From the NCBI RefSeq assembly GCF_016859285.1, contig NC_053416.1:3559001-3623000 (forward strand): a DNA stretch of 64,000 nt. Direction: 5' to 3'. Below the pieces are notes generated by a model, which was not told the DNA's origin, made no database searches, and saw nothing but the letters and a program-made list of their open reading frames with translations. Position 1 is the first letter of the stretch; each line of letters begins with the position of its first letter. Position numbers and translations under genes: made by a program. Source of the DNA: Xiphias gladius. Lineage: Eukaryota; Chordata; Actinopteri; Istiophoriformes; Xiphiidae. Shown in pieces: positions 11,185-54,333 of this stretch.

Positions 11185-11919
11185 CATCAACTATATCTGC
11201 CGTCCAGGGGCAAGTCGAGGCATGACCTGAGGTATGGCCACACACGCACGGTAAAGTGTAGCTGTGGAGACGGTTGTGTTTCTCCGGCAGTGGTCACTTG
11301 TGAACGGAGCGGTGAGAACTGCAGCGACCACAGGTAAGAACACGGCTCCCGTCCCTTCACATACATGCGCATTTTATACAGCGGAGCAAAAATCCCCGTC
11401 AGTTACAGTGCTGTTGTCTTCACGAGTGCAAAAAAAGGGTCTCAAGTTCTGCTTGCCCGACCCTGCTGCCATGGACATCAGCATGTGGTCACAATGTGTG
11501 CAACGTGATGATCAAGGCAGCACGTTAACAGCCAATCAGATTCCTGCTTCCTTGCCACCCTTCCAATGCGATTCAGCCTCATGAAGTTCAAAACAACTTG
11601 GATCAACATCTCTAAAAAAAAAAAAAAAAAATCACTGACTGGAGTGTGGCAGCCTCAGTCATTGGTAAAACTCTGGAGTCATTGTTTTCTATTATTTTTG
11701 ACTAACATTACCTCAATATTTGCTAATCTCCCTTTACCGGCTATGTTAACTTGTTAAGGGGCCAGTGTTGTAGAGGAGGAAAAAAAAAAAAAGACAAACC
11801 GTGGCCTATTCCCGGTGTGAAAGAGCATGAAAGTGATGGCGGAGTTTTCCAGACAGAATTTCAACTCGGCATCTGAGGAATCAAGTTTTTTTCTTTCTGT
11901 TAAAAATTAACACTGCCTT
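11185..11919. repeat. 735-bp direct repeat, copy A (intergenic)
   Basis: This block is nearly identical to 14444-15195 in the same orientation. Both begin CATCAACTATATCTGCCGTC and end ...ACTGCCTT. Differences are few point changes, short indels and the lengths of two A-runs and one T-run. Flanks differ completely on both sides. It contains an open frame of 106 codons on the plus strand (11264-11584) with no recognisable homology. That frame survives in copy B with one substitution, which at this identity is not evidence of coding. Confidence 0.9.
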
Positions 11920-13824: not shown

Positions 13825-16800
13825 CTAGGACCGGGATTTGCTGACCCAGTGGTACTTGTCAACACGAGGCCCGGTGAAGGTAAACGTGGCTCGGTAGGAC
13901 TTGAAGCCCTTCTGGCCGGCGAACTGGGAGGTGGGACCTCCAGCTGGAGGAGCGTGCGGTGGGAATGCATCCCCGGCGAAGGCCTTCCGCTTGTCCCGCA
14001 GCCAGGTCTGAGGGGCGCCGGGAGAGAACTCACTGAACTGAGGGAGAGAGGAGCAGAGCGTTAGACAAGAGACCAGTGGTGGAACGTAACGAAGTACATT
14101 TATGCAAGTAATGTGTTTTACCTTATACTTCTACTCTACCTATTATCTGACAACTATAGTTGCTTTAAGTCCCCCCCCCCCCCCATTACAAAATATGAGC
14201 TCAATAGAAATGATGCTTGTAGATTAAACTACCCAACAGGACATAACTGAGACAATAAGTCTATTGATAGAAAATTGGCAACTGCTCTGATAAATGTTTA
14301 ACGCATTTATTCGTGCAAAAATGCCACAAATATTTCCCCACTTAGCTTTTCATGGGTCAAGTCTGTCAGATGTGTAGATTTGCTGCTTTTCCTTTTAATA
14401 ATTTAATCTATTTTCAACAAGCAATGTGCATGTTTCACAAAACCATCAACTATATCTGCCGTCCAGGGGCAAGTCGAGGCATGACCTGAGGTATGGCCAC
14501 ACACGCACGGTAAAGTGTAGCTGTGGAGACGGTTGTGTTTCTCCGGCAGTGGTCACTTGTGAACGGAGCGGTGAGAACTGCAGCGACCACAGGTAAGAAC
14601 ACGGCTCCCGTCCCTTCACATACATGCGCATTTTATACAGCGGAGCAAAAATCCCCGTCAGTTACAGTGCTGTTGTCTTCACGAGTGCAAAAAAAGGGTC
14701 TCAAGTTCTGCTTGCCCGACCCTGCTGCCATGGACATCAGCATGTGGTCACAATGTGTGCAACGTGATGATCAAGGCAGCACGTTAGCAGCCAATCAGAT
14801 TCCTGCTTCCTTGCCACCCTTCCAATGCGATTCAGCCTCATGAAGTTCAAAACAACTTGGATCAACATCTTTTAAAAAAAAAAAAAAAAAAATCACTGAC
14901 TGGAGTGTGGCAGCCTCAGTCATTGGTAAAACTCTGGAGTCATTGTTTTCTATTATTTTTGACTAACATTACCTCAATATTTGCTAATCTCCCTTTACCG
15001 GCTATGTTAACTTGTTAAGGGGCCAGTGTCGAGGAGGAGGAGAAAAAAAAAAAAAAAAAAAAACAAACCGTGGCCTATTCCCGGTGTGAAAGAGCGTGAA
15101 AGTGATGGCGGAGCTTTCCAGACGACAGAATTTCAACTCGGCATCTGAGGAATCAAGTTTTTTTTTTTTTCCTTCTTAAAAATTAAGACTGCCTTAAGGT
15201 GGTGAGAAACGTCATCACAATTACCCAAACTGAGAAAATAACCGTCCAATTAAAATGAGCTCCACCTTTAACTACAACAGTAAAATGCTGCATAGACATT
15301 AACACATCACTAATACAATAGCACAAGACTCATGGGACATTTTACTACATAAAGTATAAAAAGCAAAAGTAGTTAAAGTACATTTTCTAATTTTTTCAGT
15401 CCAGGACACTTTTTTTATAAACATCCATGTGGTATTAGTACTTTTAAGTAAATGATCAATACTTTTGACTAGAAGAAAGTCACAAAAAATTTTTTAAATT
15501 AAAGGCTCTAACTACCCACCGTTCGTTCCAGCTGGTTAATGGGGCTGCTGCTCTTTTGTCAGCGCCCAAGAAAAAGCAGAAAATACGCAAATTCCCTCAA
15601 AATGTTCATTCAGCAGAATCAAAATGCTTTGTAGTTAAAAATGTGGCCTGTGTCCTATTCATCAGCATTTATTAAAGGCCTGAAGATGCTTTGTCCCTCT
15701 AAAAGTGCCCAATAACAGCACAATGTCTGTCTTATGTGCTTCTGTGTTGTATATTTTAACTAGTCATAATGTAGTACAATGGTGTCTTTTTCGGCAGCAT
15801 TAATTTTCTTATTATTTTCTGAATGTTAAGAGTTGATCTCAGTAACTGTCATTTTCATCTTAGATTCTGTTTTAGGGCGACTTTGCAACATTGTCCTGGG
15901 ACTACAGATGAAAAACGGTCTTTTGACGAACTCTGGCACGTTTACAACATTTTATATATTGATGTACATCGTCACTCAAACCAATAAATAAGAAAATAAA
16001 ATAGATGAAACAGTTTTAGCAGGTAACATGTATTCCAGTTCTCATCTGTCTATAGAGACCTATATTAAAAAAAACAAAAAAAAAAAAAAACACTGATACA
16101 CAACCCTATCACCAGACAAGAATGTTGACGGATGATTTTGCGAAACTCCAGGTAATGTCCAGTTACTCTCTCTTTTTTTAAAAATCGAGCTATCTACAAT
16201 TTCTGTATACGGTAACTATGGTATGGTTGAGATCACAAAAAGTCCACGGCATTATTCCTTTGTGTATTCAACCTACCCGGTAGACGCTGTTGGGGTTGCT
16301 GACAGTTGGGATGGTTTTGGGTTCAGGGTTGGCGGCGGGGATCGGCGCAGGGCAGAGAGCTGATAGGCTGCTACTGCTGCTGCTGCTGCTGCTGTCTCCA
16401 ACCCCCTCCTCCTCGTCCGAAGAGCTTCCTGATTGGACATCAAGGCTCGCTCGCTCCACAGCATCATGGATGCGGCGGGAAAATTCCCCGTCTCCGCGCT
16501 GACAACTGCCCACCACCGAGACGCAGAATGGAGTGCTGTGTTCACCGTACCTGTAAGTAGGGGGGAACAAAAAACACTTTATAACAAAAATAAACAGCAG
16601 GTTTTCATCATACGGCTCCACTGTTCATGAGCACTGTGGCTTCAAACACGGCGTCATGTATATCACCAAAAAAACATTGCCATTATTAAGTCAGCAATTT
16701 TGCGCATTTCACACCTGGGGTGGAAAAAAAAAAAAAAAGTCAATACATTTCCTTCCCTGGTAGCAGTTGGTACACTACTGCTTGGGTTTTCAGTGAAAAT

Positions 16801-19289: not shown

Positions 19290-20980
19290 AATCTCTAGTT
19301 TAACGAACCCAACCAGACTCAGCAAACTCAGACCTCTACCGTTAAAAAACCTCCTCAGACAATAAAAGACGTGTAGGGTGATCCTACTGTTTGCAGAAAA
19401 GCAAACGACACCAAATAAAACTAACAAGACAAACTGGAAGCCAGACAACTCGAGCAAACACATTTGCTGCTGGAGCTCTAGAGAGAACTCAGCTCTGATT
19501 TCTAATGCTGCTACAATAACAACCATAAATAAATAACAAAGCACATGCAGCTACAACGATCTAAATCTGTGTATGAAGCAGCAGCTCCTCCGGTAGCGGA
19601 AACCCACATGCATCAGATACTGAAAGAATCACTCCTCACTTTCTCATGTGCTTTAATGAAACCACAGTTCAGCTGTGTGATGAGCTGACTCACCTGAGGC
19701 TGGTTGACTTAATGACTCGTGTGTGTGTGTGTGTGTGTGTGAAACTCACGCAACAACTGATGCCATCTCCCTGCAGCACTTCAGTCTTGAAATGGCCCAG
19801 ATGTGAAGAAACGAGTGACCACTTCATGGCACAGAGGGTGCGGAAAGTACAGTCAGATACGAGAACTGTCTGTGAAGGGCCGGGGGGGGGGGGGGTAGTA
19901 AAGGGTCAGTTCACCTAAATGACGGCAACGCAAGTTTCACAACCATCATTCCACGCAGAGTTAATTTAACTATGGTTGGAGAGAAATCAGTTTAATTCTG
20001 CGAACAAATAGTTGATGGGATTTTTACATTTTATTTTATTCGAGATGCACCGCGCTTAATTCACCACCCTCTGTTTGTTTGTATATATATACGCCACTTG
20101 TGAGTTGTCCCGCAAGGGAATACATCCGAGTTTATGGTAAGAATATCTCCAAACCCCGGTTTTCCTCTGAATGACCAACATCGACTCTATCACGTTAGCA
20201 GGGTTATTGAGGGGAGTCCTCTCACAGAAGCGGCTAACTGCTTTTCTCGTTGCGTAATAGCTCTCCGAAATGACTTTGCGCACACACCGACGGGACTTTC
20301 AGTTTCTCCTCAAATGTAAACAGCAACACCGTGGGCCCCTGAAAGCGCATTTCGGTGGCTGCCATCCGTCCGTCAGTAACAGTTCGTTCATTTGGAGCGC
20401 TGTATAACTAGACTGGTCCGCGGAGAAGAGCGGTCTCGTCCCGCTCGTCTGTCGGCTTGTTGAGTTGTTATTTACCAGGTCAAAGAGGGTGATGCAGAGG
20501 AGGATGTGACGGAATATTATTTCACCTCACTCCAACTCCAGCATGTCGTTGTGAGCAAAATGTTTTCAGATCACGGCTGGAAGCGCCACCTCGGCGCCCT
20601 GGGATCCGGCACTGGGCACCCCATTGCGCACCAAACACGCCGTCAGCCAATATTGAAATATCATAGTGAAAGCACGGGGACACCGTCTCGTAAAGACCGC
20701 AGACTCGTACGTCCTGCAAAAAAGAAAAAAAAAAGAAAATCACATTTGCATAAAAAACGGAGAGGGAAGAGAAAAACAAAGACAAGGAGTCAATTTTGAA
20801 TTCGTACAATAAAGACCAACACACAGAGTCTCCACAGTTACAGTCAGATCTACAGATGCTACAAAGATACTGGATTCTTTGTTCCGGACTTTAACCCTTA
20901 AAGAAGTCGAACAGAATCAGTGATGGTTTATTTCTTTACACCATTACACCATTTCTACGGAATGGAGAGACGAGACCAGT
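19290..20980. other. Upstream region of btg4
   Basis: No protein gene recognised. A (TG)n microsatellite is at 19719-19741 and a G-run at 19883-19894. A GC-richer stretch at 20300-20480 may hold the btg4 promoter or a leader exon on the minus strand, but I could not identify a start site. Confidence 0.35.
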
Positions 20981-20984
20981 GAGC

Positions 20985-21561
20985 GCAATCATTCATCAAG
21001 CGGAACTACCGCAAACGTCAATCCAGATGGGACGGGATGTGATATGTGTCTGGATACCAGCGGATAGTCCGTTTGGAATGAAAGGAAATGAATTAGCGGA
21101 TATAGTTTTCAAAATAATTCACACACAAAAAAACAAACAAACAAACAACCGTATTGATGTAATAGTTAACTTTAGCAAGACAGAGATGAATTAAGGACAA
21201 ACTGAGGGAAAGGTTGCAGAAGCAGTGGGAGAAAGAGAGAAGGGGGACGTGGTTTAATAGAGTTCAAAGAGGAGGGAGGGCGGAAACATTCGGGTTAAAA
21301 GACTAAACAGCACATTCTTAAATATAGGAAAACAGGAGGGTTTTTGCTCTTTTTGTTCTCGGTTTATTTGATTCGATTTCATTTGAATTAGATTTATCCG
21401 CGATGTTACAGGCTTAAATGTAGAGTCCCGAGCGCCGGGACACTCCATACCAGTTGGTGGCGGTAACGCACCGTCTCTTGTTTGTCAACCGCCAAAATGA
21501 AAACAGAAGAAGAAGAAGGAAAAAGAAGAAGAAGCAGAAGAAGAACAAGAAGAAGAAGAAG
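20985..21561 (+). mobile_element. 5'-truncated non-LTR LINE: RNase H remnant, 3' tail and (GAA)n
   Basis: The plus-strand frame around 20990-21110 reads VICVWIPADSPFGMKGNELAD, the core of a LINE-type RNase H domain (canonical VWVPAHxGxxGNExAD); the His is replaced by Asp. A degraded C-terminal stretch follows with stops. The 3' end contains CCAGTTGGTGGCGGTAACGC and TTTGTCAACCGCC, followed by AGAAGAAGAAG repeats at 21503-21561. That combination is the typical 3' end of I-clade-like LINEs in teleosts. The copy is broken by stops and inactive. Confidence 0.75.
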
Positions 21562-21602
21562 AAACGGGGGGCGTGCTTTATTTTTCAGACGTTATCAAAG
21601 GC

Positions 21603-21651
21603 GCTCTGACGCAATAAAGGATTCATGGGGCTTGGCGTCATCATGACGTCA
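21603..21651 (+). promoter_or_regulatory. Promoter-proximal block of array copy 1
   Basis: Shared with copies 2 and 3: ACGTTATCAAAGGCGCTCTG, then CAATAAAGGATTCA. In copies 2 and 3 the same place reads CTATAAAGGATTCAC, so the TATA box is degraded here. A perfect cAMP-response-type palindrome TGACGTCA (21644-21651) overlaps the second in-frame ATG. The equivalents in copies 2 and 3 are TGATGTCA/TGACATCA. Confidence 0.5.
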
Positions 21652-23337
21652 CAACCGAGTGCCTTTGATGTTCAACGGGGTAAGAACACATTGATTATCT
21701 CAACTACGCAACTGAACCAAACCACAGAAAACACAAACCGAGAACATCTTGACAGAGGATCAGCTGAAAATCCGCCAACGTTCATCATGGATCCAACAGA
21801 ACTACAAGTGGCCGCTTATGTGAAATTCCCTCCAATCAGAGTATCCGACATATGGATCAGCCCATACACCACGTGTTTGGTCAGAAATTACTGGGACTCA
21901 GTGAAATCTGGCATGCACGACGATAACACTAGGCCTTATCTGATTGAGATATGTCAGAACATTGTTAATTTGTCATCCATGACTATTATGGAAAGCATTA
22001 AGCCTATCACGTCAGACTGGCACAGGAAAGCCCCCCGGATATATGAACTTGTACACCCCTCCCAGTGTTTCTTCGGGATAGATGAGAGTTCCGTCTTGGC
22101 GAACATGAAAGACATCCTTCCACGGTGTTTCGCTAACTCTTTAGACGTCAAAAAAATTATTAAATGTGAGAGTTTAGACCTATTCACCTGGTTAGTTGCA
22201 AAAGAGGTGACAGCGAGAGTAAACTATCGCATAGCTGAGAGAATGTCCTCCAACATTTCGCATTTGGAATCCAGGACTTATGAGTGTAACTGCATAAGTT
22301 TTGAAACTCTTAATACCATGATTGGTCTAGTTATTAAAATATTAAGATGCATGTGCGACGCGAACTGCCGGTGTACACCAGTGCTCAGAACGTCAGAGGA
22401 GGCCAGTAGCACTTCAGCCTTAAAGGACGACCAAGCAAAAAAACCAAAGCTTTTCGTTGTAGAGCAGGGGCCCTGTGAAGTTACCTATTGTATTTTGAAC
22501 AGAGAAGTGAGACAAATACTGACAGAGGTCACTGAATTCACCCGTAACATATATGTGGATAAAAATGCATCTCTCTGTTACGAGGAGTTGGATAGCTGGC
22601 TATCCAGTGAAAGCTCTGATTCGATACACAGTTACTTAGACTCTGATACAGATGGTAAATATTCTGATACTGAAGTATCTAAGAATCACAGTGTACAAAT
22701 CACTGATGAAAACCGGCACAGCTATGACCTCACAGATACAGAGGGCCAATCTGAGGACTGGACCACAGGGTCATCTGTTGAAACTATTGACAGTGGACCA
22801 GGTGGTCAAAGCAGGGTAGTTTGTCAGACAGTAACCCTGGCCTCACCATGTGAGGATCAGCCTAGTGACTCCACAGCTGCGCCAGCTGTTTCTTCTGACC
22901 TTTGTAGCTCTGAGTCAGCAAAAATGCCAGAAGATGACACAGCGCACATACTGGTTGTCCTGGTGCTTACAGGGTTGCTGCTGCATACCGCCAAGAAGGC
23001 CCAGATATCACTGCTCCAAAGCGATTTCGACATGATCATCAAGAATCTGAGAGACAAAGCATTGAAATACATCAAGCTCACCGACATTGTTGTGAGCTTA
23101 AACCATCAAACTGTCAAGAAGACCTACAAGGCTGTGTTCAGGGACGTGTTTCAGCAGTTTGGCTCTGTAGAGGTGCTTCTGCAAGCCTTTGGATCAGAGC
23201 ACTTCACTGCTAACAACCCTATTATCCAGGCCTTGAAGACTCACCTTACAGTGCCCGCTCCGACTCCAAAGAAGAACGCCATCGCCAGGTTTTTTTCATC
23301 TGTTGGCAAAGCTATTATGACGCCATTCAAGGCCTGA
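21625..23337 (+). CDS. Uncharacterised array protein, copy 1 (570 aa, intronless)
   Basis: I do not recognise a characterised family. The ORF is single-exon with its own poly(A) signal at 23547-23552. Three in-frame starts are possible: ATG at 21625, at 21643 (matches the start of copies 2 and 3) and at 21787, which has the best Kozak context (ATCATGG). Seen in order: a polar leader; a conserved domain from MDPTELQ to about residue 205 with DLFTWLVAKEVTARVN; a Cys cluster CNC...CMCDANCRC; an acidic Ser/Asp/Thr-rich linker (about 310-430); the hydrophobic stretch HILVVLVLTGLLLH; a helical C-terminal domain with KTYKAVFRDVF; and a basic end RFFSSVGKAIMTPFKA. No signal peptide is evident. Some uncharacterised teleost proteins have a similar C-terminal layout in my memory, which is weak support. 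Copy-specific features: a 2-codon insertion giving QRGKN near the start. Confidence 0.85.
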   Translation: MGLGVIMTSQPSAFDVQRGKNTLIISTTQLNQTTENTNREHLDRGSAENPPTFIMDPTELQVAAYVKFPPIRVSDIWISPYTTCLVRNYWDSVKSGMHDDNTRPYLIEICQNIVNLSSMTIMESIKPITSDWHRKAPRIYELVHPSQCFFGIDESSVLANMKDILPRCFANSLDVKKIIKCESLDLFTWLVAKEVTARVNYRIAERMSSNISHLESRTYECNCISFETLNTMIGLVIKILRCMCDANCRCTPVLRTSEEASSTSALKDDQAKKPKLFVVEQGPCEVTYCILNREVRQILTEVTEFTRNIYVDKNASLCYEELDSWLSSESSDSIHSYLDSDTDGKYSDTEVSKNHSVQITDENRHSYDLTDTEGQSEDWTTGSSVETIDSGPGGQSRVVCQTVTLASPCEDQPSDSTAAPAVSSDLCSSESAKMPEDDTAHILVVLVLTGLLLHTAKKAQISLLQSDFDMIIKNLRDKALKYIKLTDIVVSLNHQTVKKTYKAVFRDVFQQFGSVEVLLQAFGSEHFTANNPIIQALKTHLTVPAPTPKKNAIARFFSSVGKAIMTPFKA

Positions 23338-23379
23338 TTGACCAGCCCATGATCAGCCCCATCCCACCGCAACCCCTTC

Positions 23380-23530
23380 CCCCGGACAAGCAAGTAAACA
23401 TCTCATCATGACACTGCGGCTTCACAGCATCAAAGTGAAGGTTCGATTCCCTTCCTCCACCCTTTCTGCGAGGAGTTTGTATGTTCTCCCCGTGTTGGTG
23501 TGGATTTACCCACATTCCCAAAAAATACAG
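23380..23530 (+). repeat. SINE-like remnant in the array 3' UTR
   Basis: The block reads GACACTGCGGCTTCACAGCA, GGTTCGATTCCCTTCCTCC, then GAGGAGTTTGTATGTTCTCC and CCGTGTTGGTGTGGATT. This matches a widespread teleost tRNA-derived or tRNA-like repeat, including a B-box-like GGTTCGATTCC. It is present at the same place in copies 2 (28341-28491) and 3 (33755-33905), so it was in the ancestral unit and forms part of the 3' UTR. Confidence 0.6.
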
Positions 23531-23546
23531 TTGGATGGGACACTTC

Positions 23547-23552
23547 AATAAA
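23547..23552 (+). terminator. Poly(A) signal of array copy 1
   Basis: AATAAA about 210 bases past the stop codon, followed by a T-rich stretch. The same signal and context occur in copies 2 (28508-28513) and 3 (33921-33926). Confidence 0.7.
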
Positions 23553-24639
23553 GTTTTTCCCCATAATAAGAAATGTCTTATGCCTTTAAACCATCAAGAC
23601 ACATGGTCTCAGTTAAGCAACTTTAAGTTTATCCATATCCCGTTATTCCCACATGGTAGCTGTGTAGCTCTTCCTTCAAGCTATTAGGTGCTTACACTGA
23701 GTGAAAAGAATCCATTTTATGGCTGCTCTATGGAAAAAGTCTGAATGACTTGAGCATCGACTTATACACATTTCCCAAACATTCTGCCCGTATAATATCT
23801 TTGGAAATGTTAGGATCTCTACCAGATTTTAAAAATAAAGTCTTCAACAATGTTTGGTTGTACATCGTGAATTTTGGTAATGACTAGCCCACAGATGGGC
23901 TACTGCTTGTTGATAAAATAAAAAGTTGACAACAGTTGTCGGGGTTGGAAAATAATGCAAATACAAATAAATAACTCAAATTAATGTCCTACTGGTTAAA
24001 ATATTTCAGAGTAAGAATATCTGAATGGAAAATACAGTAAATCAGGTGAAGGTAAAAAAATAGTTGCTGAATCTGAGTCAGCCATTAGGTGGAGACAAAC
24101 AGCCACTAATGAGACCCACAGTTTTTCTTAATCATGTCGCTCTTCTGTTCTACTAATGAGCAGATATTTTTTGCATTTCTTTTGTCATTTTCATAATAAA
24201 CAAAAGTTGATTCCTTTGCTTTAAACAATAATCACTGCCCTTGTAACAGCTTCATGGATAAATATAAAGATATTTCTCCTTTACGCTCATTGTATAAATC
24301 TGAAAAAGAATCAGTATTATTTATTTTCTTTAATGACGCTACTCCCAAAAATATTGATCAGATGTTGCTTTCTTAATTTTTTGTTGCTTTAGCAAACAAA
24401 TTTACTAAATACAACATTCTGTGCTTTTTCATCTGCTCATATTTGCAACAGAACAGTTGACAACTGCATGAAACATGTCTTTTAGGAAAATATCACTTTC
24501 ATAAATCAACTTGAGACCTTCTTCAGTTGCTGTGGAAATGTTTTACGCATCCCCAAACAGTCTGTGTGCCCAAAAAGCATGAAATAGAAGCACTCTTGTG
24601 AAAAATATTGTGAAGCACATTAGATTTTTTTTCCAGTCT

Positions 24640-25400
24640 CTGTTATCCTATTGATAAATGTAGAAATCTGTGTCTGTCTGTATTTTGATTTTCTTGACAA
24701 CTGTTCATCTGATTGACTTCAAACTTCACGGGTGTATTGCTGACGACCCAACAAAGTGCAGAGTCAATTCTGACATTTTTTGGGTGATCGGTTCTCGAGA
24801 AAATCTACCAAGATTCCTGCATTTATTTTAAAGTGCATTTGTTGTTACCATGGTAACCATGTTTTCTTTTGAATTGACACACAACCCTTAGGTCATGCCA
24901 TCAAAGGTCACGCTCCAGGTTGACAGGCACGGCACTAGTCCTACTAATGAATGAAGTAATCTCCATCTGTACTGCCATTTTCTCAACAAACGCTCGTCCG
25001 ATCGACTTCAAACTTCACGCTTTTATTGTTGATGACCCAACAAAGTGCAAAGTCAATTGTGAACTTTTTTTGAATGAGCAGTTTGAGAAAATCTACCAAG
25101 ATTCCTCCATTTATTTTAAAGTGCATCTGTTTTTACCATGGTAACCATGTTTTCTTTTGAATTGACACACAACCCTTTGGTCATGCCATCAAAGGTCACG
25201 CTCCTGGTTGACAGGCACGGCACTAGTCCTATTAATAAATGGAGAAATCTACATTGGTATTTTGATTTTCTTGACAACTGTTCATCTGATTGACTTCAAA
25301 CTTCATGGGTTTATTGTTGATGACCCAAGGAATTGCAGAGTTGTCTGTGAAGGTTTTTGGAAGAGCGGTTCTCAAGAAAGTCAAAAATACAGATATAAAA
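24640..25400. repeat. Three ~290-bp tandem subrepeats, unit 1
   Basis: Three imperfect repeats, each with TCTGATTGACTTCAAACTTC or a close variant, GACCCAACAAAGTGCA, AGATTCCTSCATTTATTTTA and GTTGACAGGCACGGCACTAG. They start at about 24650, 24930 and 25220; the third is truncated. The GTTCATCTGATTGACTTCA phrase is familiar from repeats in other teleosts. The first two contain TTACCATGGTAA palindromes. Confidence 0.85.
24844..24857. promoter_or_regulatory. Perfect RFX/X-box palindrome, unit 1
   Basis: GTTACCATGGTAAC is a perfect 14-bp palindrome of the X-box type bound by RFX factors. A shorter TTACCATGGTAA occurs in the next subrepeat at 25133-25144. Equivalent sites in unit 2 are at 30347-30360 and 30636-30647. 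Binding is inferred only from the motif. Confidence 0.4.
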
Positions 25401-26508
25401 TAACCCTACGCAAATGCAGATCAGCAGTAAAAGCTTTTAATTTCTGTTCAAAGAGACACTGACTCACCCCACCATTTTAAAATTCATACTCTGATCTTCC
25501 AAAGTTCCATATTTTTTATGCACATTAAATATTAAAATGGATTTAAATTGATTTTACCTTCCCAACTGTACGAACAAGAAGAAATAAAGTGATACCGAAA
25601 CAATCACAGCATATATTTTATTTGAGTGAACACTGAATTTATATAAAGCCAAAACCATTCTGTCTAAGAAAAATAAAAAAGTACCCTCCACTTCACACTT
25701 CCACCATAGAAATTCTTTAAATAAACAGGCAAAAAGGTTATACACAGTAATGGTACAAGCTGAGCAGACACCAAAGTGCAAATGATCAGTGGAAGTGATG
25801 AGAAAATGCACAAAAATATTTATAGATTTTCGTATCCTGTCAGAATGCCACACAAATGCCGATTTGTCAGTTCTAACAATTTCCACACTTCCACAAAGTA
25901 TTTTAAAATCCAAATGAGGGAAAATTTTGTCTGAACTGAAGCCTCTGAAACGGCATTTTGATGGAAGTGGGACGCCAAAACAAACCTACAAGACGTTTGT
26001 AGTAAAGGGTGCACTACTTTGGCCTTTAAATGAAGAAGTCATTCAGAAAGTACCACCGAACAATAAAAACCAATAAACTACACATGCAGAGAAGAAATTT
26101 CAATCAATCCACAGGATTTCAGGATTTTTTTCTGCTCTGATCAGGAGGAATGTGACTGATTGGCCGGAAATCAGATACTAAATTAACGGTGAATATCTTC
26201 TTCATTCGATCAGTGTAACAGTGTGCTAGTTTTGTTCAACATGAGACAGGGAAATGGTGCTCTAGCGAGGAAAACTAAACATAAACACAAACAGACTCGC
26301 AGCAGTCACGGGCAGAGAACCTACAAGCTTTCTCTCAAACAGGCTCCCTAAATTCAAACGTTTTTGACACCAGCACTTTTTATACAATAGGGGGTCGGAG
26401 AAAAATCAGTTTACACTCACCATAGTTTGTGCTAAAATTAGGCCACACAAGGGGTTCAATAAAAATGAAATATTCTTTGTTAATTTTATTTACAAAAAGT
26501 CAACAGAT
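25401..26508. other. Array spacer, unit 1
   Basis: Spacer shared with unit 2 (30906-31936). Minus-strand open frames here (25554-25913 and 25820-26014) are one continuous frame of 153 codons in unit 2 (31057-31518), because unit 1 has one fewer A in the run at 25976. No homology is recognised and I do not call it a gene. Confidence 0.5.
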
Positions 26509-26556
26509 AAACGGATGTGCTGTATTTCTTAGACGTTATCAAAGGCGCTCTGATGC

Positions 26557-26562
26557 TATAAA
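26557..26562 (+). promoter_or_regulatory. TATA box of array copy 2
   Basis: TATAAA within GCTATAAAGGATTCAC. A start site about 30 bases downstream (near 26588-26592) would fall at or just before a short upstream ORF. A 24-bp local duplication (ATGATGTCATCTAACCGAGT then ATGACATCACAGCCGAATGC) lies just after it and is absent from copy 1. Confidence 0.65.
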
Positions 26563-26586
26563 GGATTCACGGGACGTGACATCATC

Positions 26587-26613
26587 ATGATGTCATCTAA
26601 CCGAGTACGATGA
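26587..26613 (+). promoter_or_regulatory. Upstream ORF of array copies 2 and 3
   Basis: ATG at 26587 opens an 8-codon frame (MMSSNRVR) whose TGA at 26611 overlaps the ATG of the long ORF at 26610. The identical arrangement is in copy 3 (32015-32041). Copy 1 lacks it. It should reduce initiation at the overlapping ATG if the RNA starts upstream of it. Confidence 0.45.
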
Positions 26614-28298
26614 CATCACAGCCGAATGCCTTTGATGTTGTCAAGGACACATTGATTATCTCAACTACGCAACTGAACCAAACCACAGAAAACACAAACC
26701 GAGAACATCTTGACAGAGGATCAGCTGAAAATCCGCCAACGTTCACCATGGATCCAACAGGACTACAAGTGGCCGCTTATGTGAAATCCCCTCAAATCAG
26801 AGTATCCGACATATGGACCGGCCCATACACCACGTATTTGGTCAGAACTTACTGGGACTCGGTGAAATCTGGCATGCACGACGATAACACTAGGCCTTAT
26901 CTGATTGAGATATGTCAGCACATTGTTAATTTCTCGTCCCTAATTATTATGGAACGCATTAAGCCTATCACTTCAGACTGGCACAGGAAAGCCCCCCGGA
27001 TATATGAACTTGTACACCCCTCCCAGTGTTTCTTCGGGATAGATGAGAGTTCCGTCTTGGCGAACATGAAAGACATCCTTCCACGGTGTTTCGCTAACTC
27101 TTTAGACGTCAAAAAAATTATTAAATGTGAGAGTTTAGACCTATTCACCTGGTTAGTTGCAAAAGAGGTGACAGCGAGAGTAAACTATCGCATAGCTGAG
27201 AGAATGTCCTCCAACATTTCGCATTTGGGATCCAGGACTTATGAGTGTAACTGCATAAGTTTTGAAACTCTGAATACCATGATTGGTCTAGTTATGAAAT
27301 TATTAAGATGCATGTGTGACCCGAACTGCCAGTGTACACCGGTGCTCAGAACGTCAGAGGAGGCCAGTAGCACTTCAGCCTTAAAGGACGACCAAGCAAA
27401 AAAAACAAAGCTTTTCGTTGTAGAGCAGGGGCCCTGTGAAGTTACCTATTGTATTTTGAACAGAGAAGTGAGACAAATACTGACAGAGGTCACTGAATTC
27501 ACCCGTAACATATATCCTGACAAAAATGCATCTCTCTGGTACGAGGAGTCGGATAGCCAGCTATCCAGTGAAAGCTGTGATTCGATGTACGGTTACTCAG
27601 ACTGTGATGCAGATGGTGAATATTCTGATACTGAAGTATCTAAGAATCACAGTGTACAAATCACTGATGAAAACCGGCACAGCTATGACCTCACAGATAC
27701 AGAGGGCCAATCTGAGGACTGGACCACAGGGTCATCTGTTGAAACTATTGACAGTGGACCAGGTGGTCAAAGCAGGGTAGTTTGTCAGACAGTAACCCTG
27801 GCCTCACCATGTGAGGATCAGCCTAGTGACTCCACAGCTGCGCCAGCTGTTTCTTCTGACCTTTGTAGCTCTGAGTCAGCAAAAATGCCAGAAGATGACA
27901 CAGCGCACATACTGGTTGTCCTGGTGCTTACAGGGTTGCTGCTGCATACCGCCAAGAAGGCCCAGATATCACTGCTCCAAAGCGATTTCGACATGATCAT
28001 CAAGAATCTGAGAGACAAAGCATTGAAATACATCAAGCTCACCGACATTGTTGTGAGCTTAAACCATCAAACTGTCAAGAAGACCTACAAGGCTGTGTTC
28101 AGGGACGTGTTTCAGCAGTTTGGCTCTGTAGAGGTGCTTCTGCAAGCCTTTGGATCAGAGCACTTCACTGCTAACAACCCTATTATCCAGGCCTTGAAGA
28201 CTCACCTTACAGTGCCCGCTCCGACTCCAAAGAAGAACGCCATCGCCAGGTTTTTTTCATCTGTTGGCAAAGCTATTATGACGCCATTCAAGGCCTGA
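26610..28298 (+). CDS. Uncharacterised array protein, copy 2 (562 aa, intronless)
   Basis: Paralogue of copy 1 with the same architecture. Residue positions: second start M47 in strong Kozak context (ACCATGG, 26748); conserved DLFTWLVAKEVTARVN at 177-192; cysteines at 213, 215, 234, 236, 240 and 242 in CxC pairs; acidic linker about 304-430; hydrophobic HILVVLVLTGLLLH at 433-446; KTYKAVFRDVF at 491-501; C-terminal helix about 546-562. From residue 338 to the end it is identical to copy 1. It is the most divergent copy at residues 303-337, with 12 substitutions against copy 1. No frameshift or stop is seen. Function unknown; the expanded, diverging tandem layout would fit a defence-related or other rapidly evolving role, which is inference. 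Confidence 0.85.
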   Translation: MTSQPNAFDVVKDTLIISTTQLNQTTENTNREHLDRGSAENPPTFTMDPTGLQVAAYVKSPQIRVSDIWTGPYTTYLVRTYWDSVKSGMHDDNTRPYLIEICQHIVNFSSLIIMERIKPITSDWHRKAPRIYELVHPSQCFFGIDESSVLANMKDILPRCFANSLDVKKIIKCESLDLFTWLVAKEVTARVNYRIAERMSSNISHLGSRTYECNCISFETLNTMIGLVMKLLRCMCDPNCQCTPVLRTSEEASSTSALKDDQAKKTKLFVVEQGPCEVTYCILNREVRQILTEVTEFTRNIYPDKNASLWYEESDSQLSSESCDSMYGYSDCDADGEYSDTEVSKNHSVQITDENRHSYDLTDTEGQSEDWTTGSSVETIDSGPGGQSRVVCQTVTLASPCEDQPSDSTAAPAVSSDLCSSESAKMPEDDTAHILVVLVLTGLLLHTAKKAQISLLQSDFDMIIKNLRDKALKYIKLTDIVVSLNHQTVKKTYKAVFRDVFQQFGSVEVLLQAFGSEHFTANNPIIQALKTHLTVPAPTPKKNAIARFFSSVGKAIMTPFKA

Positions 28299-28507
28299 TT
28301 GACCAGCCCATGATCAGCCCCATCCCACCGCAACCCCTTCCCCCGGACAAGCAAGTAAACATCTCATCATGACACTGCGGCTTCACAGCATCAAAGTGAA
28401 GGTTCGATTCCCTTCCTCCACCCTTTCTGCGAGGAGTTTGTATGTTCTCCCCGTGTTGGTGTGGATTTACCCACATTCCCAAAACATACAGTTGGATGGG
28501 ACACTTC

Positions 28508-28513
28508 AATAAA
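28508..28513 (+). terminator. Poly(A) signal of array copy 2
   Basis: AATAAA in the same context as in copy 1 and copy 3, about 210 bases past the stop codon. Confidence 0.7.
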
Positions 28514-29078
28514 GTTTTTCCCCATAATAAGAAATGTCTTATGCCTTTAAACCATCAAGACACATGGTCTCAGTTAAGCAACTTTAAGTTTATCCATATC
28601 CCGTTATTCCCACATGGTAGCTGTGTAGCTCTTCCTTCAAGCTATTAGGTGCTTACACTGAGTGAAAAGAATCCATTTTATGGCTGCTCTATGGAAAAAG
28701 TCTGAATGACTTGAGCATCGACTTATACACATTTCCCAAACATTCTGCCCGATGTAATATCTTTGGAAATGTTAGGACCTCTACCAGATTTTAAAAATAA
28801 AGTCTTCAACAATGTTTGGTTGTACATCGTGAGTTTTGGTAATGACTAGCCCACAGATGGGCTACTGCTTGTTGATAAAATAAAAAGTTGACAACAGTTG
28901 TCGGGGTTGGAAAATAATGCAAATACAAATAAATAACTCAAATTAATGTCCTACTGGTTAAAATATTTCAGAGTAAGAATATCTGAATGGAAAATACAGT
29001 AAATCAGGTGAAGGTAAAAAAATAGTTGCTGAATCTGAGTCAGCCACTAGGTGGAGACAAACAGCCACTAATGAGACC

Positions 29079-29610
29079 TATATGAGTGACGTTTTGCTAA
29101 CAAGTAGATATGCAACTAACAATTTTTTCATGAATTAATTTGCCAATTATTTTCTGAATTAATTGATATCCTCAGTTAATGTTTGTTCAATTAAATGCCA
29201 AGTAACAGTCAAAAATGGTCACCACAATATCCCAGATCCCAACATGATGCTTTTAAATGAATTTTCTTGAATTTTCTTGTTTAAACAAATGTCTGAAAAT
29301 ATTCAGTTTAAAAATGACTTAATCAGTTGATTATCAAAACATAAATCTGTTGAAGCCGTTTCACTTTCTCTAAACTGCTTCAGCACATTGTCTGACACAC
29401 TGTTGCAGTTCCCAAAACATTTCAGCACATGAACGTGAACTTTGCAGGGTAATTCATTTTTATCGACAACTAACTCAATGCATCACCGGGTCACCTGAAG
29501 GGATTTTTCCTGGTCCTTGCAGAGTCCTTGAGACAAGTCCTTGATGACTAGTCTTTCCATGAAGAAAGGTACCTTGGAAGTGTGGCATAAAATTACCGTT
29601 GCTGAGATTA
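29079..29610. repeat. Block present in unit 2 only
   Basis: Unit 1 reads GCCACTAATGAGACC directly into CACAGTTTTTCTTAATCATG (24106-24140). Unit 2 has about 530 extra bases between the same sequences. The first part (29100-29345) resembles the ATTAATCGAT-type repeat also found at 8040-8400. The second part (29345-29610) is not recognised. The polarity (gain in unit 2 or loss in unit 1) is unknown. Confidence 0.75.
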
Positions 29611-30149
29611 CATAGGCAACACAGTTTTTCTTAATCATGTCGCTCTTCTGTTCTACTAATGAGCAGATTTTTTTTGCATTTCTTTTGTCATTTTCATAAT
29701 AAACAAAAGTTGATTCCTTTGCTTTAAACAATAATCACTGCCCTTGTAACAGCTTCATGGATAAATATAAAGATATTTCTCCTTTACGCTCATTGTATAA
29801 ATCTGAAAAAGAATCAGTATTATTTATTTTCTTTAATGACGCTACTCCCAAAAATATTGATCAGATGTTGCTTTCTTAATTTTTTGTTGCTTTAGCAAAC
29901 CAATTTACTAAATACAAGATTCTGTGCTTTTTCATCTGCTCATACTTGCAACAGAACAGTTGACAACTGCATGAAACATGTCTTTTAGGAAAATATCACT
30001 TTCATAAATCAACTTGAGACCTTCTTCAGTTGCTGTGGAAATGTTTTACGCATCCCCAAACAGTCTGTGTGCCCAAAAAGCATGAAATAGAAGCACTCTT
30101 GTGAAAAATATTGTGAAGCACATTAGATTTTTTTTCCAGTCTCTGTTAT

Positions 30150-30905
30150 CCTATTGATAAATGTAGAAATCTGTGTCTGTCTGTATTTTGATTTTCTTGA
30201 CAACTGTTCATCTGATTGACTTCAAACTTCACGGGTGTATTGCTGACGACCCAACAAAGTGCAGAGTCAATTCTGACATTTTTTGGGTGATCGGTTCTCG
30301 AGAAAATCTACCAAGATTCCTGCATTTATTTTAAAGTGCATTTGTTGTTACCATGGTAACCATGTTTTCTTTTGAATTGACACACAACCCTTAGGTCATG
30401 CCATCAAAGGTCACGCTCCAGGTTGACAGGCACGGCACTAGTCCTACTAATAAATGAAGTAATCTCCATCTGTACTGCCATTTTCTCAACAAACGCTTGT
30501 CCGATCGACTTCAAACTTCACGCTTTTATTGTTGATGACCCAACAAAGTGCAAAGTCAATTGTGAACTTTTTTTGAATGAGCAGTTTGAGAAAATCTATC
30601 AAGATTCCTCCATTTATTTTAAAGTGCATCTGTTTTTACCATGGTAACCATGTTTTCTTTTGAATTGACACACAACCCTTTGGTCATGCCATCAAAGGTC
30701 ACGCTCCTGGTTGACAGGCACGGCACTAGTCCTATTAATAAATGGAGAAATCTACATTGGTATTTTGATTTTCTTGACAACTGTTCATCTGATTGACTTC
30801 AAACTTCATGGGTTTATTGTTGATGACCCAAGGAATTGCAGAGTTGTCTGTGAAGGTTTTTGGAAGAGCGGTTCTCAAGAAAGTCAAAAATACAGATATA
30901 AAATA
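30150..30905. repeat. Three ~290-bp tandem subrepeats, unit 2
   Basis: Counterpart of 24640-25400, nearly identical, with RFX-type palindromes at 30347-30360 and 30636-30647. Confidence 0.85.
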
Positions 30906-31797
30906 ACCCTACGCAAATGCAGATCAGCAGTAAAAGCTTTTAATTTCTGTTCAAAGAGACACTGACTCACCCCACCATTTTAAAATTCATACTCTGATCT
31001 TCCAAAGTTCCATATTTTTTATGCACATTAAATATTAAAATGGATTTAAATTGATTTTACCTTCCCAACTGTACGAACAAGAAGAAATAAAGTGATACCG
31101 AAACAATCACAGCATATATTTTATTTGAGTGAACACTGAATTTATATAAAGCCAAAACCATTCTGTCTAAGAAAAATAAAAAAGTACCCTCCACTTCACA
31201 CTTCCACCATAGAAATTCTTTAAATAAACAGGCAAAAAGGTTATACACAGTAATGGTACAAGCTGAGCAGACACCAAAGTGCAAATGATCAGTGGAAGTG
31301 ATGAGAAAATGCACAAAAATATTTATAGATTTTCGTATCCTGTCAGAATGCCACACAAATGCCGATTTGTCAGTTCTAACAATTTCCACACTTCCACAAA
31401 GTATTTTAAAATCCAAATGAGGGAACATTTTGTCTGAACTGAAGCCTCTGAAACGGCATTTTGATGGAAGTGGGACGCCAAAAACAAACCTACAAGACGT
31501 TTGTAGTAAAGGGTGCACTACTTTGGCCTTTAAATGAAGAAGTCATTCAGAAAGTACCACCGAACAATAAAAACCAATAAACTACACATGCAGAGAAGAA
31601 ATTTCAATCAATCCACAGGATTTCAGGATGTTTTTCTGCTCTGATCAGGAGGAATGTGACTGATTGGCCGGAAATCAGATACTAAATTAACGGCGAATAT
31701 CTTCTTCATTCGATCAGTGTAACAGTGTGCTAGTTTTGTTCAACATGAGACAGGGAAATGGTGCTCTAGCGAAGAAAACTAAACATAAACACAAACA

Positions 31798-31824
31798 GAC
31801 CCCCTATTTATTCAATAGGGGGTC
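31798..31824. repeat. Perfect 11-bp hairpin at a unit 2/3 junction difference
   Basis: GACCCCCTATT and AATAGGGGGTC flank a 5-base loop. In unit 1's equivalent (26290-26400) only the right arm exists, and the place of the left arm holds about 100 different bases. See findings. Confidence 0.85.
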
Positions 31825-31984
31825 GGAGAAAAACCAGTTTACACTCACCATAGTTTGTGCTATAATTAGGCCACACAAGGGGTTCAATAAAAATGAAATA
31901 TTCTTTGTTAATTTTATTTACAAAAAGTCAACAGATAAACGGATGTGCTGTATTTCTTAGACGTTATCAAAGGCGCTCTGATGC

Positions 31985-31990
31985 TATAAA
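31985..31990 (+). promoter_or_regulatory. TATA box of array copy 3
   Basis: TATAAA in the same context as in copy 2, 53 bases before the first ATG of the long ORF, with the same 24-bp duplication and upstream ORF. Confidence 0.65.
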
Positions 31991-32037
31991 GGATTCACGG
32001 GACGTGACATCATCATGATGTCATCTAACCGAGTACG

Positions 32038-33711
32038 ATGACATCACAGCCGAATGCCTTTGATGTTGTCAAGGACACATTGATTATCTCAACTACGCAA
32101 CTGAACCAAACCACAGAAAACACAAACCGAGGACATCTTGACAGAGGATCAGCTGAAAATCCGCCAACGTTCACCATGGATCCAACAGGACTACAAGTGG
32201 CTGCTTATGTTGGAGTACCTGACATATGGACCGGCCCATACACCACGTATTTGGTCAGAACTTACTGGGACTCGGTGAAATCTGGCATGCACGACGATAA
32301 AACTAGGCCTTATCTGATTGAGATATGTCATTACATTGTTAATTTGTCGTCCCTAATTATTATGGAAGGCATTAAGCCTATCACTTCAGACTGGCACAGG
32401 AAAGCTCCCCGGATATATGAACTTGTACACCCCTCCCAGTGTTTCTTCGGGATAGATGAGAGATCCGTCTTGGCGAACATGAAAAACATCCTTCCACAGT
32501 GTTTCGCTAACTCTTTAGACGTCAAAAGAATTATTAAATGTGAGAGTTTAGACCTATTCACCTGGTTAGTTGCAAAAGAGGTGACAGCGAGAGTAAACTA
32601 TCGCATAGCTGAGAGAATGTCCTCCAACATTTCGCATTTGGGATCCAGGACTTATGAGTGTAACTGCATAAGTTTTGAAACTCTTAATACCATGATTGGT
32701 CTAGTTATTAAAATATTAAGATGCATGTGCGACGCGAACTGCCGGTGTACACCAGTGCTCAGAACGTCAGAGGAGGCCAGTAGCACTTCAGCCTTAAAGG
32801 ACGACCAAGCAAAAAAACCAAAGCTTTTCGTTGTAGAGCAGGGGCCCTGTGAAGTTACCTATTGTATTTTGAACAGAGAAGTGAGACAAATACTGACAGA
32901 GGTCACTGAATTCACCCGTAACATATATGTGGATAAAAATGCATCTCTCTGTTACGAGGAGTTGGATAGCTGGCTATCCAGTGAAAGCTTTGATTCGATA
33001 CACAGTTACTTAGACTCTGATACAGATGGTAAATATTCTGATACTGAAGTATCTAAGAATCACAGTGTACAAATCACTGATGAAAACCGGCACAGCTATG
33101 ACCTCACAGATACAGAGGGCCAATCTGAGGACTGGACCACAGGGTCATCTGTTGAAACTATTGACAGTGGACCAGGTGGTCAAAGCAGGGTAGTTTGTCA
33201 GACAGTAACCCTGGCCTCACCATGTGAGGATCAGCCTAGTGACTCCACAGCTGCGCCAGCTGTTTCTTCTGACCTTTGTAGCTCTGAGTCAGCAAAAATG
33301 CCAGAAGATGACACAGCGCACATACTGGTTGTCCTGGTGCTTACAGGGTTGCTGCTGCATACCGCCAAGAAGGCCCAGATATCACTGCTCCAAAGCGATT
33401 TCGACATGATCATCAAGAATCTGAGAGACAAAGCATTGAAATACATCAAGCTCACCGACATTGTTGTGAGCTTAAACCATCAAACTGTCAAGAAGACCTA
33501 CAAGGCTGTGTTCAGGGACGTGTTTAGGCAGTTTGGCTCTGTAGAGGTGCTTCTGCAAGCCTTGGGATCAGAGCACTTCACTACTAACAACCCTATTATC
33601 CAGGCCTTGAAGACTCACCTTACAGTGCCCGCTCCGACTCCAAAGAAGAACGCCATCGCCAGGTTTTTCTCATCTGTTGGCAAAGCTATTATGACGCCAT
33701 TCAAGGCCTGA
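32038..33711 (+). CDS. Uncharacterised array protein, copy 3 (557 aa, intronless)
   Basis: Paralogue of copies 1 and 2. Leader and first domain are closest to copy 2; the Cys cluster and linker (CMCDANCRC, YVDKNASLCYEELDSW) are closest to copy 1. Five residues are missing after AAYV, where the sequence reads VGVPDIWTG. Copy-specific substitutions include R for S in DERSVL, N and Q in KNILPQC, R in DVKRII, F in SSESFDS, R in VFRQF, L in ALGSEHF and T in FTTNN. The six cysteines, the hydrophobic stretch and the C-terminal RFFSSVGKAIMTPFKA are unchanged. Second start in strong context at 32176. Function unknown. Confidence 0.85.
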   Translation: MTSQPNAFDVVKDTLIISTTQLNQTTENTNRGHLDRGSAENPPTFTMDPTGLQVAAYVGVPDIWTGPYTTYLVRTYWDSVKSGMHDDKTRPYLIEICHYIVNLSSLIIMEGIKPITSDWHRKAPRIYELVHPSQCFFGIDERSVLANMKNILPQCFANSLDVKRIIKCESLDLFTWLVAKEVTARVNYRIAERMSSNISHLGSRTYECNCISFETLNTMIGLVIKILRCMCDANCRCTPVLRTSEEASSTSALKDDQAKKPKLFVVEQGPCEVTYCILNREVRQILTEVTEFTRNIYVDKNASLCYEELDSWLSSESFDSIHSYLDSDTDGKYSDTEVSKNHSVQITDENRHSYDLTDTEGQSEDWTTGSSVETIDSGPGGQSRVVCQTVTLASPCEDQPSDSTAAPAVSSDLCSSESAKMPEDDTAHILVVLVLTGLLLHTAKKAQISLLQSDFDMIIKNLRDKALKYIKLTDIVVSLNHQTVKKTYKAVFRDVFRQFGSVEVLLQALGSEHFTTNNPIIQALKTHLTVPAPTPKKNAIARFFSSVGKAIMTPFKA

Positions 33712-33920
33712 TTGACCAGCCCATGATCAGCCCCATCCCACCGCAACCCCTTCCCCCGGACAAGCAAGTAAACATCTCATCATGACACTGCGGCTTCACA
33801 GCATCAAAGTGAAGGTTCGATTCCCTTCCTCCACCCTTTCTGCGAGGAGTTTGTATGTTCTCCCCGTGTTGGTGTGGATTTACCCACATTCCCAAAACAT
33901 ACAGTTGGATGGGACACTTC

Positions 33921-33926
33921 AATAAA
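33921..33926 (+). terminator. Poly(A) signal of array copy 3
   Basis: AATAAA in the same context as in copies 1 and 2. Confidence 0.7.
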
Positions 33927-34185
33927 GTTTTTCCCCATAATAAGAAATGTCTTATGCCTTTAAACCATCAAGACACATGGTCTCAGTTAAGCAACTTTAA
34001 GTTTATCCATAAGCCCTTATTCCCACATGGTAGCTGTGTAGCTCTTCCTTCAAGCTATTAGGTGCTTACACTGAGTGAAAAGAATCCATTTTATGGCTGC
34101 TCTATGGAAAAAGTGTGGATGCCTTGAGCTTCGACTTATACACACTTCCCAAACATTCTGCCCGTATAATATCTTTGGAAATGTT

Positions 34186-53816: not shown

Positions 53817-54333
53817 ATATACAGTAGTGTGCAAAGTTTGTGACGATAAACGTAATGTGAGAATCCTTTAAAATTATACCATGAATAGTTTCTATTTATC
53901 AATTAACTTCATACAAAGTGCAGTAAACAGGAAAAAAACTAAATCAATATTTGAGCAGCGATTCTCCTTGGTACACCCGCACACAGTTTTTCAAGCCCCT
54001 TGGCAGGTAGGTTGTTCCAAGCATCTTGGAGAACTTGCCTCAGTTTTTCTGTGAATTTAGGCCTTCTCGGTTTCTTCTGGCTCTCCATGTGATCCCAGAC
54101 TGACTCCAGGATGTTGAGATCGGGACTCTTTGGGGGGCCAGACCATCTGTTGCCGGACTCCCTGTTGTTCTCTTTGCTGAAGATAGTTCGCTGTGATGAA
54201 TGAATGTTTGGGGTCGTTGTCATGCAGGTGAATGAATTGAGGACAGATCAGATGCTACGTGATAGTGTTACATGAGGGATAAGAATCTTAACATTTTAAG
54301 TGCCTAAAACTTTTGCACAGCACTGTATATCAA
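53817..54333 (-). mobile_element. Tc1/mariner-like element remnant
   Basis: On the minus strand, a frame from 54223 to 53939 contains PKSPDLNILESVWDHMES, the C-terminal DDE region of a Tc1-type transposase (canonical SPDLNPIENxWD), then LRQVLQDAWNNLP and LEKLCAGVPRRI. Imperfect ends pair ACAGTAGTGTGCAAAGTTT (53820) with the reverse complement of 54306-54330, ACAGTGCTGTGCAAAAGTTT. The element is much shorter than a full Tc1 (about 0.5 kb), so most of the transposase is lost. Confidence 0.8.

Follow-up and report, generated by a model that had tools for sequence, protein, structure and literature searches.

The Slx/Sly genes of mice, an example of ampliconic male germ-cell families, are multicopy and fast-changing (PMC7743899), and the finTRIM genes, an immune family, have been duplicated and diversified in fish (PMC2657112). 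Here, we describe a locus that shares these traits, a tandem array of three long open frames in a 64,000-nucleotide stretch of the swordfish Xiphias gladius genome (NCBI RefSeq assembly GCF_016859285.1, contig NC_053416.1, positions 3,559,001 to 3,623,000 of the forward strand; this whole stretch is called the window below, and coordinates count from its first letter). The likeness to Slx/Sly lies in copy number and rapid change, with no sign of sex linkage here. Unlike finTRIM, the window family has no Pfam domain at the cut-off and no interferon-stimulated response element (ISRE) in its promoters. Taking the evidence as a whole, we lean towards explaining the array as a strongly diverged offshoot, duplicated in tandem, of an intronless multigene family in the swordfish. 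The array is real and intact-looking, but its kind is familiar, that of expanded, fast-evolving tandem genes; what had been three orphan frames become a diverged branch of a sizeable family that lacks a Pfam entry.

Homology to a wider family in the swordfish genome

A search of the swordfish genome with the protein of the middle copy (copy B) returned 16 matches; besides the three window copies themselves, there were 13 at other loci, which share 28-32% identity within residues 385-559. A second, N-terminal match emerged from a two-sequence BLASTP comparison between a window protein and a paralogue on contig C24. The window proteins share 20-27% identity with seven paralogues, which were chosen for their long open frames (a member on contig C220 has ACG in place of the start) and from which a profile was built. 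Copies A, B and C match this profile with E values of 5.5e-26, 6.9e-25 and 1.6e-25, respectively, at a nominal 100,000 sequences; 300 shuffled versions of B produced no reported match at E 10.

Querying the genome with a paralogue yielded at least 88 matches, a lower bound obtained with 68 of the 200 candidates scored. These matches group into 51 further clusters on 16 contigs (C20, C24, C219, C220, C223, C224, C226-C229, C231, C573, C583, C585, C614 and C635), and the expansion suspected in the earlier note thus reaches far beyond the array. The clusters are mostly spaced 4.6-7.5 kb apart, with two gaps of ~10.7 kb; on C24, two short intervals (2.2 and 2.4 kb) may split single genes. A stop-free frame aligned over at least 617 residues is present in 8 of the 51 clusters; the others, which contain stops or are partial, may be pseudogenes, contig ends or assembly errors. 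In addition, some of the clusters may be haplotigs, as the C20 locus at 19.97 Mb shares 99.3-99.5% identity over long blocks with C223 and C224. Contig C220 carries five tandem units that are 97-98% alike: the frame is open over its full length in two of them, open but cut off by the start of the contig in a third, open no earlier than residue 80 in a fourth, and in pieces in the fifth.

The seven paralogues belong to a main clade with proteins of 625-653 amino acids, whereas the window proteins lack a middle segment of ~110 residues (an alignment gap in all three), and the length of their branch is 1.5-1.9 substitutions per site. At the DNA level, positions 18001-40000 of the window show no similarity to the paralogue contigs compared at E 1e-3 over at least 40 bases. 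The two groups have in common N- and C-terminal homology, a single coding exon, a cAMP response element (CRE) near -140 and an organization in tandem units. Judged from these sequence features, the window array almost certainly belongs to the wider in-genome intronless family.

This family has no name in the domain libraries searched. In Pfam, copies A and B matched no family and copy C gave two sub-threshold matches, with none at the cut-off, in agreement with the earlier note, which had been unable to assign a characterised domain; three of the paralogues likewise matched no Pfam family above the cut-off. PHROGs returned nothing above threshold, with one weak match for A and C (E 0.22 and 0.44), while NCBIfam and PADLOC, searched with A and B only, gave no match, and PDB, searched by sequence and by profile, gave none better than E 0.57, which is at chance level. 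No published account of such a family was recognised in a literature search, a result that cannot show the family to be unpublished.

A gene that is multicopy, intronless, devoid of known domains and present on many contigs could also belong to a mobile element or an endogenised virus, as its cargo or protein. However, neither the transposon-protein homology that the earlier note had listed among the observations that would refute its view nor any other transposase, polymerase, capsid or viral homology was found in Pfam, PHROGs, phage records, IMG/VR or GTDB contigs, the last three containing no relative. The copies have moreover multiplied in tandem units, long spacers included, and their promoter sites are kept. 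We therefore regard a mobile or viral origin as very unlikely.

Layout of the array and position of the coding start

The only frames of at least 200 amino acids beginning with ATG, GTG or TTG in the window are three, all on the plus strand and one in each direct repeat. The frames, and the repeat units around them, are as follows.

21625-23337, plus strand: ATG frame of copy A as first called, 570 amino acids
26610-28298, plus strand: ATG frame of copy B as first called, 562 amino acids
32038-33711, plus strand: ATG frame of copy C as first called, 557 amino acids
21573-24116, plus strand: gene part of repeat unit 1 (copy A), from self-comparison
26517-29078, plus strand: gene part of repeat unit 2 (copy B), from self-comparison
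31945-34185, plus strand: gene part of repeat unit 3 (copy C), shorter, without spacer and ending at 34185, from self-comparison
24117-26296, plus strand: spacer of unit 1, 99.45% identity to 29620-31800
29620-31800, plus strand: spacer of unit 2, 99.45% identity to 24117-26296
23547-23552, plus strand: AATAAA of copy A, starting 210 bases past the stop, read from the sequence
28508-28513, plus strand: AATAAA of copy B, starting 210 bases past the stop, read from the sequence
33921-33926, plus strand: AATAAA of copy C, starting 210 bases past the stop, read from the sequence

The gene parts of the three units are direct repeats with 95.5-96.9% identity in the window self-comparison. The frame list, the self-comparison and the reading of the sequence thus bear out the earlier description of three long open frames in direct repeats, each with an AATAAA. 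The threefold unit of ~5 kb given in that description holds for units 1 and 2 with their spacers, but unit 3 measures just 2.24 kb and has no spacer, so that the order of the array is gene-spacer-gene-spacer-gene; successive frame starts lie 4985 and 5428 bases apart. Because the three long frames are in register within the repeats, chance is excluded as their source. An assembly duplicate is also unlikely, since the window sits on a 28-Mb contig (C17) of the 691-Mb assembly and the frames of copies A-C differ by 2.4-2.8%.

Within the repeats, 541 bases at 29079-29619 are present in unit 2 only, and the few bases shared at its junction speak for the loss of this stretch from unit 1 more than for an insertion. 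Each spacer contains 2.2 copies of a 288-bp tandem repeat, at 24705-25328 and 30208-30831. The 3' untranslated regions (UTRs) of the copies may derive from a short interspersed nuclear element.

Comparison with the paralogues places the start of copies A-C further inward, at ATGGATCC (A 21787, B 26748, C 32176), which divides each frame into a proposed coding sequence and an open 5' extension.

21787-23337, plus strand: proposed coding sequence of copy A from the inner ATG, 516 amino acids, from paralogue comparison and profile
26748-28298, plus strand: proposed coding sequence of copy B from the inner ATG, 516 amino acids, from paralogue comparison and profile
32176-33711, plus strand: proposed coding sequence of copy C from the inner ATG, 511 amino acids, from paralogue comparison and profile
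21625-21786, plus strand: open 5' extension of copy A, probably promoter or leader, aligning with paralogue promoter and leader
26610-26747, plus strand: open 5' extension of copy B, probably promoter or leader, from paralogue comparison
32038-32175, plus strand: open 5' extension of copy C, probably promoter or leader, from paralogue comparison

The inner ATGs are the likely starts because the 5' part of the annotated frames coincides with the CRE region of the paralogues, and we consider it very probable that they are the true start codons of all three copies. Genes of 557-570 codons, as initially proposed, are open over such lengths, but the paralogues place the probable start inward, which would reduce the proteins to 511-516 amino acids. 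Among the seven paralogues, the start context is CACCATGG in four and CAGCATGG in two. At 26587-26613 in B and 32015-32041 in C, 23 nucleotides that A lacks give rise to an upstream frame of eight codons, with a stop overlapping the ATG of MTSQ (ATGA).

As in the wider family, the coding part of copies A-C is a single uninterrupted exon, with a 5' UTR intron being possible. The proposed proteins start with MDP. Their N-terminal region shares homology with the paralogues; it is followed by an acidic linker rich in Ser, Asp and Glu and by a basic C-terminal region that ends with the family motif RFFSS. By composition, residues 300-430 of B (numbered over its 562 residues) are acidic (pI 4.05) and residues 430-562 basic (pI 10.0).

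Constraint on the paralogues and probable exchange among the copies

The ratio of nonsynonymous to synonymous change (omega) lies at 0.54-0.80 in 19 of the 21 pairs among the seven paralogues, with p<0.05 in 18 of these 19 (lowest p 5e-8) and a single non-significant pair at omega 0.80 (p 0.094). The C20/C227 pair has an omega of 0.26 (p 0.001). The paralogues evolve under constraint.

The three window copies are mosaic. Sites specific to a single copy are clustered, with 71 sites forming 15 runs compared with a shuffled mean of 48, and none of 20,000 shuffles was as low; sites before 21643 and three sites at which all copies differ were left out of this test. The difference between copies A and B amounts to 2.84% within the frame but 0.54% in the 3' UTR plus spacer (p 4e-10), and their synonymous sites show the same excess in the frame (p 7e-5), while for B and C the contrast between frame and outside was not significant (p 0.25). 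The level of divergence changes inside the frame, near 22657, and exchange with diverged copies therefore fits better than selection on the frame alone. No copy that could have served as donor was found. We infer unequal crossing-over as the source of new units and gene conversion as the process that reshuffles them.

Promoter elements and a possible site of expression

Upstream of the paralogues, a palindrome, a GC box and CRE sites precede the coding start in this order. The 17-base palindrome is exact in six of the seven paralogues and present as a variant in the seventh (C231). Across 691 Mb, the exact 17-mer occurs 23 times and its reversed control not at all; in 22 of these cases, a family match follows 239-571 bases downstream, and the remaining one lies at a contig end. 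The CRE TGACGTCA is found in six of the seven paralogue promoters, with 10 sites in all where single-base shuffles average 0.0, and TATAAATA lies ~110-120 bases before the start in two C220 copies. The window copies carry CRE or CRE-like sites at a similar distance from the start.

21644-21651, plus strand: CRE consensus TGACGTCA of copy A, at -143 from the inner ATG
26577-26618, plus strand: three CRE-like variants of copy B, at -171, -160 and -137 from the inner ATG
32005-32046, plus strand: three CRE-like variants of copy C, at -171, -160 and -137 from the inner ATG

Together, the corrected start codon and the family-specific promoter signature make expression directly testable.

Spermiogenesis in the mouse requires both RFX2 and CREM (PMC4498915). 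In the swordfish family, a CRE-type promoter would drive the genes, and the RFX-site-like palindrome of the main clade would point to expression most likely in the male germ line or in other ciliated cells. We bet on germ or ciliated cells because of the tandem amplification, the rapid change combined with paralogue constraint, the CRE sites and, in the main clade, the RFX-like palindrome. The protein could then be a fast-evolving binding or scaffold protein of such cells, which is a guess; a germ-cell role is the best that we can offer for its function, and we hold it to be doubtful. If the family were germ-cell specific, it would represent a teleost counterpart of the mammalian ampliconic testis families. 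The most far-reaching version, in which the array and the ~51 loci constitute an undescribed ampliconic germ-cell family with an RFX-like plus CRE promoter, multiplying and exchanging sequence in a genetic conflict (such as sperm competition or segregation distortion) and including a window branch that left the main arrays and acquired a changed promoter and a new role, appears unlikely.

Several results weigh against these proposals and against the array as a working branch of the family. The 17-mer has no match in the window even with three mismatches, and the RFX-like element therefore has no direct word to say on the three window copies. The promoter of the C24 paralogue has no CRE by the patterns used. 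The RFX half-sites of the palindrome face outward. Of the seven paralogue promoters, three hold the full X-box pattern, and two of these three belong to a single array; the window copies hold none, and the germ-cell step is therefore a guess. The target sets of RFX2 and CREM in mouse hardly overlap, according to PMC4498915, so joint control would not be the usual pattern. Structure prediction, which the earlier note had put forward as a check, yielded no fold: an AlphaFold model with the three window proteins as input reached a mean predicted local distance difference test score (pLDDT) of 30.1, with all 562 residues below 50 and helices just a hint, and a model of this kind backs no fold and hence no function. 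Finally, omega counted from the inner start is 1.07 for A/B, 0.81 for A/C and 0.98 for B/C, none of them different from 1, and the two C220 copies give 1.43 (p 0.23, not significant).

Omega values of 0.81-1.07 in the array would also fit an explanation in which the window copies are recent duplicates turning into pseudogenes and yielding no functional protein. Random single changes create a stop in 4.2-4.4% of cases (3.1-3.3% with transition bias), and we estimate that zero stops would arise by chance with a probability of ~6% over 64 variable sites, or ~12% with transition bias; openness despite substitutions is thus weak evidence of selection. The view that the frames have been held open by selection consequently applies to the paralogues but is weakly shown for the array. 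Decay would also fit the loss of the main-clade upstream element in the window and the stops in many paralogue copies. However, all three frames are intact from the inner start, downstream of which the single length change among the copies (15 nucleotides) is in frame, the ancestral frame remained open even though the branch is very long (1.5-1.9 substitutions per site), and the RFFSS motif and CRE sites have been retained. On this evidence, we consider pseudogene formation improbable and continue to favour a diverged branch of the intronless family.

The promoters bear equally on a further explanation of the genes, namely that they encode immune effectors or restriction factors and expanded under pathogen pressure, with the RFX-like half-site read by a major histocompatibility complex (MHC)-type RFX complex. 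Other tandemly expanded immune families exist in fish, such as finTRIM (PMC2657112), and promoters of MHC class II genes are where the X-box was originally described (PMC4498915); the mosaic structure of the array and its omega near 1 would fit diversifying genes. However, no known immune domain was found in Pfam, and the ISRE pattern is absent from all ten promoters of 330 bases (seven paralogues and three window copies), which leaves the virus or interferon response hinted at in the earlier note without backing. The NF-kB and interferon-gamma-activated site patterns each occur in one of the seven paralogue promoters and in no window copy, and CCAAT occurs in two of the seven, under the shuffled mean. 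An immune role accordingly has a low probability in our view.

Surroundings of the array

The neighbours of the array are ordinary genes, as had been supposed, with flanking exons identified by Pfam above the cut-off. On the minus strand, these comprise RRM exons at 6.3-7.3 kb, which we take by our own reading to be hnRNP-like, BTG exons at 17.6-19.3 kb, and mitochondrial-carrier exons at 40.6-40.9 and 51.2-51.5 kb. A tRNA-Val gene lies at 365-437, also on the minus strand. No convincing diverged remnant of the family was found elsewhere in the window (tblastn, best E 2.6).

Just 5' of copy A, a remnant at 20880-21563 ends in an (AGA)n tail at 21505-21563. The remnant resembles the RNase H region of a long interspersed nuclear element; a Pfam search with 20895-21191 in it gave no match. 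A second direct duplication, outside the array, spans 11185-11919 and 14444-15195 (~750 bp, 96% identity) and includes a 109-amino-acid frame at 11255-11581 that had no match in Pfam. A DDE_3 transposase fragment on the minus strand at 53942-54247, presumably Tc1-like by eye, scores 23.0 bits, under the Pfam cut-off of 28.6.

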